Shown here: positions 51,903-54,541 of the stretch, piece by piece
Layout: each line of letters opens with the position of its first letter
How positions within the stretch are numbered: position 1 is the first letter of the stretch
DNA from: Flavobacteriales bacterium
GTDB lineage: Bacteria > Bacteroidota > Bacteroidia > Flavobacteriales_F > PHOS-HE28
Direction of reading: 5' to 3'
NCBI GenBank assembly: GCA_024103275.1
Contig: JAGFIV010000060.1
Location: 1 to 64,000, forward strand
DNA length: 64,000 bases
Made by a program: the position numbers and the translations under genes
The notes under the pieces: generated by a model
What the model saw: only the letters and a program-made list of their open reading frames with translations
What the model was told of the DNA's origin: nothing
The model's database searches: none

Positions 51903-52376
51903 ATGAGCAAGGAGGCCAAGGCCCGCATCAAGATCAACAAGCTGCTCGAAGAGGCGGGCTGGCGTTTCCTGGCTGATGAACATGGCCCGGCCAACATCAC
52001 GCTGGAGACCGGTGTGAGCGTGATGCCGGAGTACATGGCCGAGCAGTATGGCGACGACTTCGAGAAGACGAAGAAGGGCTTCATCGATTACCTGCTCGTG
52101 GATGGTGACGGCTATCCCGTGGCACTGCTTGAAGCGAAGCGCGAAAGCATCCACCTGCCCGCCGAGCAGGAGAACATCTCCGCGCTGCGCCACTTCTTCA
52201 AGGCCTACGTGGGGGACCAGGACGTGCGCGAGATCATCCACCAAAAGGCCTTCCAGCGCCTGGCCAACCACCCGGCCCTGTCCATGGAGGAGTTCAAAGC
52301 CCTTTCACCCGGCCGCCGCACCCTGGTGCCCGACCATGTGGACACCTACGTGCCGCTGGACGTCTATGCAGCCTGA
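51903..52376 (+). pseudogene. Internally deleted type I restriction R subunit
   Basis: 157 codons. Residues about 1-88 match the N-terminus of EcoEI-type HsdR: KEAKARIKINKLLEEAGWRF and the nuclease element in FIDYLLVDGDGYPVALLEAKR. From about 90 on (ALRHFFKAYVGDQDVREIIHQKAF ... YVPLDVY) the pattern is that of the C-terminal region. The whole helicase motor (about 500-700 residues) is missing between them, yet the frame stays open. It cannot work as a restriction subunit. The exact junction, near LPAEQENISAL, is inferred from family layout. Confidence 0.7.
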
Positions 52377-52439
52377 CGTGTAAAGATTTTGGCAAAAACT
52401 TTACACGTCGGACGGCATGTGTAAAGATCCTTTACATGT
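52375..52439. repeat. Two GTGTAAAG-type hairpins
   Basis: GACGTGTAAAG (52375-52385) pairs with CTTTACACGTC (52399-52409). A second hairpin uses CATGTGTAAAG and CTTTACATG near 52416-52438. They follow directly on the stop of the hsdR remnant. They could be operators or a terminator. Confidence 0.65.
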
Positions 52440-52525
52440 CCTTCCAAAAGGCGAAAAAACCGACCTGGGGCACCGATGCCCACTAATCTGCAATCATATT
52501 CTATTGTGTATCAGTTTGTTACGAT

Positions 52526-52571
52526 GCGATGTCGGATTAAGCATATCGCGATATGCTTAATCCGACATCGC
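52526..52571. repeat. Perfect 46-bp palindrome
   Basis: The half-site reads CGATGTCGGATTAAGCATAT and the two halves are exact reverse complements, meeting at a central CGCG. It ends 2 bp before the stop codon of the convergent-side AAA/DUF4143 gene. A degenerate copy lies at the other end of that gene (54047-54070). Confidence 0.95.
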
Positions 52572-52573
52572 CG

Positions 52574-54019
52574 TTACTGATACGTGGCCTCCACCGCCTC
52601 GATGGCCCGGACACCCCGATAGTAGACATAAAGGGCGGCCGGCACATAGCGCAGTTCCACCTCCTTGTAGGTGAGGGTAAGCGACCGGGTGCGGGTGGTC
52701 ACCACCGCCCAGGGCACCTTGTTCTGCTTGGCGAAGGCCACCAGGCTCTTCAATTCGCCGGGCTGCTCCGCGTAGCGATCGCTCCATTTCACCTCGCACA
52801 GGTGGTCTGGCTTCAGCTTCGCGTTCAGCCGCACCAGGTCCACCTCGCCTTCACCGCGCCCCTCCTTCCAGCTGGCGTAGTACACCGGCTCGCCCAGCGT
52901 GAGGTCCTGCGCGTACACCGCCGTTTCCACCAGGGCACCGAAGCCGGGGTCGTTCTCCGGCAGGGGGCCGAACAGCGCGGTGCGCAGGCTCGGGTTGGTG
53001 AGGTACACCTTGAACCCGTGCTCCCGCTCGTACCGCCTGGCGCTCATATCCAACCGGCGCAGGCGGCGGATCAGGTAGGCGGCCTCCAGGTACTCCAGGA
53101 ACTTGCGGATGGTGAGGGCGTCCACACCGCTGGTCGCGCCCAGCGAGCCATAGCTGAACACCTGCCCGCTGTTGTACGCCACCACGCTGAAGAAGCGGTT
53201 CAGCTCCTGCACGTCCGCTATGCCGTACAGGCTGGGCAGGTCGCGCAGCAGCACCTTGTCCACGATGTCGCTGCGGATGAAACGCCCGGGGTCCTTCTGG
53301 ATCAGCGGGTCGAAAAGCGCCTCCGGATAGCCCCCGAAGGTGATGTACTGCACGAAGAGCGCGTTCAGCGCATCGATGTCGATCGTATCGTGGAAAGGCT
53401 GCATGGCGCCGCCCCATTCGCGTTTTGTGCGCACCATCAATTGCTGGCGGTCCTGCAAGTGCAGGAACTCATGGAAGGTGAGCGGCGGCAACAGGAACTC
53501 CGTGAAGCGCCCCGCCCCGCTTTCCCGGCTCTTGGTCTTCAGCGCCGCCGCCGCGCTGCCGCTCACCACGAAGCGGGTGCGCGGGTAGGTGTCCACCAGC
53601 ACCTTCAGGTCGCGCTCCCAATCGGCCAGGTACTGGATCTCGTCGAAGAGCACATGGAAGCCCGCCGGGTCATCGTCCTTCAGCGCCGCGCGGCACAGGC
53701 GGAACAGGTCGTCCAGGCGCATGCGGCCGTACACCGGCTGGTCCACGCTCAGCAGGCAGATCTTCTTGGGCGGCACCCCGCTCTCGATCAGCTGCTGAAC
53801 GCATTGCTGCATCATCACCGTTTTGCCTACCCGGCGCGGGCCCAGCAGCACCACCGCCCGCCGCACCTTGGCCTGCACCAGCCGCATGAAGGGCGAAAAG
53901 AAGGCCCGGTGCCGCATGGCACGGTAAAGCTCATCCACCCCGGCACCCGTCCACCACGGGTTCTCCGTGCGGATGCGGGCCTGCACATGCTCCTCAGAGG
54001 GCGGCTTTATGCTGGACAT
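52574..54019 (-). CDS. AAA (AAA_14) ATPase with DUF4143 domain
   Basis: 481 residues from MSSIKPPSEEHVQARIRTEN; a TTG at 54037 gives six more. Walker A is LLGPRRVGKTVMMQQ, Walker B is HVLFDEIQYLADWE, sensor-like RFVVSGSAAAALKTKSRES follows, and the DUF4143 domain contains GALVETAVYAQ and LCEVKWSDR (a nuclease-like E-x-K). The family is abundant in Bacteroidota and its function is unsettled. The gene is flanked by related palindromes, and its -7 box is 4 bp before the ATG. It interrupts a decayed type I restriction locus. Confidence 0.88.
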   Translation of the reverse strand: MSSIKPPSEEHVQARIRTENPWWTGAGVDELYRAMRHRAFFSPFMRLVQAKVRRAVVLLGPRRVGKTVMMQQCVQQLIESGVPPKKICLLSVDQPVYGRMRLDDLFRLCRAALKDDDPAGFHVLFDEIQYLADWERDLKVLVDTYPRTRFVVSGSAAAALKTKSRESGAGRFTEFLLPPLTFHEFLHLQDRQQLMVRTKREWGGAMQPFHDTIDIDALNALFVQYITFGGYPEALFDPLIQKDPGRFIRSDIVDKVLLRDLPSLYGIADVQELNRFFSVVAYNSGQVFSYGSLGATSGVDALTIRKFLEYLEAAYLIRRLRRLDMSARRYEREHGFKVYLTNPSLRTALFGPLPENDPGFGALVETAVYAQDLTLGEPVYYASWKEGRGEGEVDLVRLNAKLKPDHLCEVKWSDRYAEQPGELKSLVAFAKQNKVPWAVVTTRTRSLTLTYKEVELRYVPAALYVYYRGVRAIEAVEATYQ

Positions 54020-54023
54020 GATG

Positions 54024-54031
54024 CAAATATA
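54024..54031 (-). promoter_or_regulatory. -7 box of the AAA/DUF4143 gene
   Basis: Minus strand TATATTTG is an exact TAnnTTTG match, 4 bp before the ATG at 54019. Confidence 0.5.
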
Positions 54032-54046
54032 GCCCAAAATGACATT

Positions 54047-54070
54047 TTAAGCATATCTGAATATGCCTAA
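54047..54070. promoter_or_regulatory. Degenerate palindrome upstream of the AAA/DUF4143 gene
   Basis: TTAAGCATAT-CTGA-ATATGCCTAA, one mismatch in the arms. It shares TTAAGCATATC and ATATGC(T/C)TAATC with the perfect palindrome at the other end of the gene. Centred about 40 bp before the predicted transcription start, it would be well placed as an operator. Confidence 0.6.
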
Positions 54071-54171: not shown

Positions 54172-54541
54172 ATGCTCGATTCCGTCACCAAACGCCGCAT
54201 CGACTCCTGCCGCGACATCCTCGTGGGCAAGGTGCCCGACCCCCGAAGCCAGATCGAGCAGATCACCGTGGCCCTCATCTACAAGTTCATGCACGACATG
54301 GACCAGCAGGCCGTGGACCTCGGCGGCCAACCCAGCCTCTTCGCCCGGCACAAGGTGGACGGCCGGGAGAAGGACTTCGCCCAGTACGCCTGACCCCGGC
54401 TGGCACGGCAAGGCGGCGGTGCTGGCCGCCACCGGCGTGGAGGCCGCGCAATGGCACAAGGTCATCAGCCAGCTGCTGGAAGCCGGGAAGGTGCGGCAAC
54501 AGGGCCTGAAGAAGGGCGCGAAGTACTGCGCGGTGGCGTGA
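54172..54541 (+). pseudogene. HsdM N-terminal remnant joined out of frame to a winged-helix tail
   Basis: 54172-54393 encodes 73 residues beginning MLDSVTKRRIDSCRDILVGK and ending DFAQYA, a clear match to the N-terminal domain of a type I HsdM. After the stop, the +1 frame continues WHGKAAVLAATGVEAAQWHKVI ... KKGAKYCAVA, which looks like a winged-helix domain tail. The methylase core is absent. This and the hsdR remnant point to a second, decayed type I system. The origin of the tail is uncertain. Confidence 0.7.

Follow-up and report, generated by a model that had tools for sequence, protein, structure and literature searches.

Palindromes flanking an AAA/DUF4143 gene as a putative self-bound operator and its downstream copy

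An AAA/DUF4143 gene in a 64,000-nucleotide stretch of a Flavobacteriales genome (the window, by which we mean the whole stretch analysed) stands between two related palindromes. Comparison of the gene with its relatives suggests, with a probability of roughly two in three, that the upstream palindrome is an operator bound by the product of the very gene it flanks, that the downstream palindrome is a second copy of this site, and that the gene is thereby self-repressed. The first-pass annotation had set two readings side by side, a mobile unit ended by the palindromes and a self-regulated gene with an operator. It is the latter that gains support: the upstream palindrome is a version of a 22-bp dyad conserved at the promoters of the gene's clade and, as in autoregulated genes with palindromic operators, this dyad overlaps the gene's own promoter.

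Results

Gene and palindromes in the window

The locus comprises the following features (window coordinates):
51903 to 52376, plus strand: hsdR remnant of about 157 codons (843 aa in relative L044)
52483 to 52492, minus strand: extra half-site TGCAGATTAG, kept in L014, L015, L034 and L287
52526 to 52571, no strand: downstream palindrome, 46 bp, perfect, its core kept in L015, L016, L034 and L287
52538 to 52559, no strand: 22-bp dyad TAAG-N14-CTTA (TAAGCATATCGCGATATGCTTA) inside the downstream palindrome, full consensus match
52574 to 54019, minus strand: AAA_14/DUF4143 gene (PDC-S01 type), 481 aa from the ATG at 54019
54024 to 54031, minus strand: -7 promoter element TATATTTG of the Bacteroidota type TAnnTTTG, present in L015 too
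54048 to 54069, no strand: upstream (promoter) dyad, TAGGCATATTCAGATATGCTTA on the minus strand, one mismatch to TAAG-N14-CTTA
54172 to 54393, plus strand: hsdM N-terminal remnant of about 73 codons (open full-length hsdM(S) in L044)

The gene is what it had been taken for from its sequence: Pfam finds AAA_14 (E=6e-29) and DUF4143 (E=2e-22) in its product, both above the Pfam cut-offs. The reading frame stays open up to a TTG at 54037, 5' of the -7 box; the ATG at 54019 is the likely start, and relative L015 begins at the identical ATG. Seven PDC-S01 profiles match the protein, the best of them at E=3e-53 over residues 59-463, PADLOC's own thresholds not having been used. Its Walker A/B and PD-(D/E)XK residues are intact: G71, K72, D132, E133 and K417 are invariant, D400 is nearly so and E415 is the majority residue. 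The gene is a candidate one-gene defence unit lying antisense between hsdR and hsdM.

That setting had been described as a decayed restriction locus interrupted by the gene. The decay is evident, but no gene is interrupted: the unit sits between the hsdR and hsdM remnants. L044/L015 have an 86% identical gene at the same site, antisense between an open hsdR (843 aa) and hsdM(S), from which it follows that the decay of the restriction genes was later and separate rather than a consequence of the insertion.

The geometry of the palindromes reported earlier also stands. The downstream one consists of two 23-bp arms without a loop and ends 2 bp from the stop codon (52574-52576, minus strand), with the half-site TGCAGATTAG some 35-45 nt past it. 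The degenerate upstream copy lies about 28 to 50 bp 5' of the likely ATG and about 17 bp 5' of the -7 element, which runs from 54031 to 54024, so that it spans the -33 region. The 3.58-Mb genome has three copies of an 11-mer, TTAAGCATATC, all of which fall within the two window palindromes, which excludes a chance origin of the pair. The first-pass annotation had reasoned that palindromes of this type without DUF4143 genes would form a separate repeat family. Two of 45 genomes of the genus have the gapped palindrome pattern, the window's own and G002, where it lies next to a C-terminal remnant of the gene, 100 aa long, and no solitary copy without gene or remnant was found in the 45; among 395 Bacteroidota genomes, a clade-type 26-mer matches once, at a DUF4143 gene.

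Between the end of hsdR and the DUF4143 unit (window 52366-52460) there are two more palindromes, of the type TGTAAAG..CTTTACA, which L015 and L287 have as well; they are probably another regulator's sites.

A promoter dyad conserved in the clade

Both window palindromes are versions of a site that recurs in the window clade, whose proteins share 44-86% identity with the window protein and come from Bacteroidota, Alpha- and Gammaproteobacteria and other groups. Promoters of this clade carry a fixed 22-bp dyad, TAAG-N14-CTTA, with a fuller form, AATAAGATCA-N6-TGATCTTATT, in many members; the upstream window palindrome departs from the dyad by one mismatch and the downstream one matches it fully. 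The exact dyad precedes 15 of 47 clade genes compared with 2 of 393 control genes (Fisher p=3e-14), the controls being neighbours of DUF4143 genes rather than a genome-wide sample, and spacings other than 14 nt are found in at most 5 of the 47. The motif was discovered post hoc and then confirmed on held-out genes: in an independent set collected later, from viral contigs, an Acinetobacter plasmid and further genomes, 18 genes have usable upstream DNA, of which 7 have the exact dyad and 15 have it with at most one mismatch, against 20 of 393 controls (about 5%). It counts against our reading that about half of the first 47 clade genes lack the site at up to one mismatch.

Inner positions of the dyad covary symmetrically (z up to 5) while the arms outside the 22-bp core do not. 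Because symmetric covariation ends at the edge of the core, we take the dyad to be a site for a protein dimer rather than an RNA stem, and rejected a promoter RNA hairpin on the same grounds.

A related spacing, TAAG-N22-CTTA, is also present upstream of 5 of the 47 clade genes and of none of the 393 controls. The idea that operator-like sites serve as phage targets was dropped, as TAAGATCA-N6-TGATCTTA occurs in 34 viral stretches and its scrambled control in 42, which amounts to chance. Three solitary matches to the longer form, AATAAGATCA-N6-TGATCTTATT, slightly above chance, lie in viral contigs without a DUF4143 gene (L312, L313 and L314), one of them directly after an apparent integrase gene.

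Promoter palindromes across the family

Flanks were gathered for about 185 AAA/DUF4143 genes, 155 of them non-redundant. A palindrome scoring at least 10 within -100 to +20 of the start was found for 35% of the 155, compared with 5% of the 393 neighbours and 0.2% of shuffled upstream regions (Fisher p=6e-19), with centres mostly at -15 to -50; downstream of the genes palindromes were not enriched over neighbour genes. Other clades bear different promoter palindromes, for example TATGCAAT..ATTGCATA or ATTGAGTAAATTTACTCAAT. Palindrome similarity climbs with protein identity, from 0.37 to 0.67, whereas offset controls taken 45 nt to either side stay at about 0.38 up to 72% protein identity; at 40-60% identity, 21-41% of pairs exceed a palindrome similarity of 0.6 and none of the offset controls does. 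Each clade, therefore, keeps its own site.

Might the sites be bound by a host regulator instead of the DUF4143 protein? Operators of host regulators are common, yet several phyla share the same dyad, which plasmid and viral contigs carry as well, and the palindromes differ between DUF4143 clades in a way that tracks the identity of the protein. We consider this explanation distinctly improbable.

Individual loci add some variety. Two genes are preceded by promoter palindromes of great length, perfect or nearly so (58 bp in L138, 49 bp in L096); tandem copies of one palindrome stand upstream of the gene in L037 and flank it on either side in L158; and L201 has a DUF4143 gene plus a truncated tandem copy, each with a TTGAGTAAATTTACTCAAT-type promoter palindrome. 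A full-text search of the published literature on DUF4143 and COG1373 returned nothing on palindromes.

The downstream copy

TGCAGATTAAG-N14-CTTAATCTGCA, or a close form of it, lies at or just past the stop in the window, L015, L034, L287 and L016, so that the downstream dyad with its TGCAGAT/ATCTGCA shoulders is kept down to 65% protein identity (L016). A separate lineage, L045, has a dyad at the same distance (+13) downstream; it is the only such case among the other clade members, and the independent set has none. The downstream dyad may be a second binding site, perhaps for looping, and possibly also a 3' hairpin.

Two other origins have to be weighed. The palindrome could be a bidirectional terminator between the convergent DUF4143 and hsdR genes, the upstream dyad being an unrelated look-alike operator. 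As RNA it would form a 23-bp hairpin (-44.5 kcal/mol with flanks, z=-6.5), it sits between convergent genes in L044, and its outer arms, though not the same in L014 as in L034, form perfect pairs in each. However, it has no T-run and is absent from the output of a terminator scan, the sequence of core and half-site is conserved and common to the promoter site, and in L015 and L287 the arms are mismatched while the TAAG/CTTA half-sites at 14-nt spacing are kept. A terminator of this kind is, in our view, unlikely. Alternatively, the downstream copy might be the relic of a tandem duplication of promoter and gene in which the second gene was lost. Tandem DUF4143 genes do exist (L030, L139, L171 and L201), and in L041 the repeat, at 54 bp, exceeds the length of the palindrome; set against this, the stretch shared in the window, L045 and L080 is the palindrome only, the region downstream in the window holds no remnant of promoter or gene, and the dyad is conserved in five genomes, which makes such a relic quite improbable.

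Mobility of the gene

DUF4143 genes spread by insertion of one gene at a time, and several of the insertions come with long target duplications. Pairs of genes 85-97% identical occupy unrelated flanks, and the DNA common to relocated copies is the gene with about 30-275 nt before it and 0-85 nt after it, reaching past the palindromes. Direct repeats flank 37 of 182 DUF4143 genes compared with 12 of 278 neighbours, or 29 of 183 compared with 6 of 356 when adjacency is required; after palindrome copies and tandem genes have been removed by eye, about 19 cases remain (p=1e-5). Several insertions bear flanking target duplications of 28-450 bp. In L016, a 65% relative of the window gene, the copies of the duplicated hemW 5' end begin beyond the gene's palindromes, at a distance of about 290 nt on the upstream side and about 205 nt on the downstream side of the gene. 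Among 41 genomes with the region, the hemW 5' end is duplicated only in L016, which alone has the gene at that place; many of the others have a continuous junction between kinase and hemW, an empty site of the kind that had been proposed as a check. A difference in donor between the two hemW copies was rejected, both being similar when compared with relatives. The window copy (L006/L014) has no flanking repeat other than its palindromes.

Could the palindromes themselves be the ends at which a small mobile element recombines, with the DUF4143 protein or a transposase in trans cutting and pasting it? Relocation of single genes is real, and the same palindrome stands at both ends in unrelated clades (L041, L080, L045 and the window lineage). 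A search for other DUF4143 genes with related palindromes at both ends, however, produced only a handful among about 155, and most mobile copies lack a downstream palindrome. Moreover, homology between relocated copies ends at varying positions beyond the palindromes, the L016 duplication lies outside its dyads, and Pfam detects no HUH, DDE or recombinase domain in the window protein. Since the palindromes lie inside the duplicated or relocated units, they are not the moving ends; we rejected them as transposon ends, the mobile unit ended by palindromes that had been suggested for the window is not borne out, and we regard recombining ends as very unlikely. It is more doubtful still, and indeed highly improbable, that AAA/DUF4143 genes are self-moving one-gene elements whose AAA+, winged-helix and PD-(D/E)XK protein would bind its own palindromes at one end or at both and make widely staggered cuts that give rise to long, variable duplications.

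An insertion hotspot in another genus lies where the 3' ends of ppx and a methyltransferase gene overlap (L267, L268, L270 and L278); each inserted unit is followed by a repeat of about 100 bp of this overlap, and both genes stay complete. The cargo includes DUF4143, an AbiE-like pair and RelBE-like pairs (names read from protein sequences, not profiles). Because AbiE-like and RelBE-like units insert in the same way, this style of insertion is not specific to DUF4143. Fragments of the 5' end of a lemA-like gene lie beside the DUF4143 gene in L031 and L032 and look like a second instance in which the start of the neighbouring gene has been duplicated, over 138 bp at 71% in L032.

Predicted fold of the protein

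A structure model of the window protein (pLDDT 89, pTM 0.88) predicts an AAA+ domain, a winged helix and a C-terminal region with the PD-(D/E)XK residues, in that order. The predicted winged helix, at about 276-346, is a helix-helix-helix-hairpin. Foldseek places DNA-bound Cdc6/Orc1 (2qby) at the top, and the best VIA-align matches, mainly over residues 17-359 (the AAA+/winged-helix part), are STAND NTPases and archaeal AAA+ ATPases with a winged helix (Z 14-15, rmsd 4.4-5); a sequence search of the PDB with the window protein found no relative. The likeness to DNA-bound Cdc6/Orc1 and to the archaeal ATPases speaks for our reading. The resemblance of the modelled winged helix to that of STAND NTPases such as CED-4 and the NLRs counts against our reading: in those proteins the winged helix is not a DNA reader.

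Discussion

How might such a gene control itself? Only the gene and short flanks are common to unrelated sites, which makes the gene product the simplest candidate for the cognate binder. We propose that the DUF4143 protein, as a dimer or higher oligomer, would bind the upstream dyad over the -33 region and, once bound, would repress transcription of its own gene. The downstream dyad could add cooperative binding or looping and may also supply a 3' RNA hairpin, and the palindromes would travel as cargo of the gene, not as its termini.

According to the passages on PDC-S01 in PMC12988326, this ATPase plus PD-(D/E)XK system is the fourth most common defence across prokaryotes, and experimental validation is pending for most PDCs; the same passages make no mention of an operator, a palindrome or a mode of insertion. 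The window gene may share this defensive role. A clade-specific site that travels with a PDC-S01 protein is a candidate ready-made binding substrate, and such sites could serve to classify the family by specificity. PDC-S01 would probably be controlled by self-repression, which would be lifted once the protein is titrated or engaged. Movement as single genes, some with long target duplications, groups the family ecologically with restriction-modification and toxin-antitoxin genes.

Where does the unit stand among known systems? It matches the PDC-S01 profile, an AAA ATPase fused to PD-(D/E)XK and COG1373-like. Toxin-antitoxin modules and restriction-modification controller proteins form self-repressing operons with a palindromic operator over their own promoter. 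The DUF4143 gene likewise has a palindromic putative operator over its own promoter, but its product is a single large ATPase/nuclease, and neither a small antitoxin nor an HTH controller gene accompanies it. For restriction-modification genes, insertion with long target duplication is on record (Nobusato et al. 2000, as related in PMC1643837 and PMC3031569). DUF4143 genes resemble those insertions in the long, variable direct repeats of the target and the empty site in relatives, and differ from them in being a single AAA/nuclease gene without a methyltransferase and, in the window copy, in lacking such a duplication. In IS200/IS605 and REP/RAYT elements, too, a single gene has palindromes close to its two ends; the window protein, in contrast, has no HUH (Y1) transposase, Pfam finding AAA_14 and DUF4143 only, and the DUF4143 dyad is a conserved 22-bp promoter-centred site, in most cases at just one end. 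The window protein, finally, shares with Cdc6/Orc1 initiators and archaeal AAA+ ATPases (2qby, 2fna and 2qen) the order of an AAA+ module followed by a winged helix, and is set apart from them by an extra C-terminal nuclease-like domain and a sequence identity of 8-17%.
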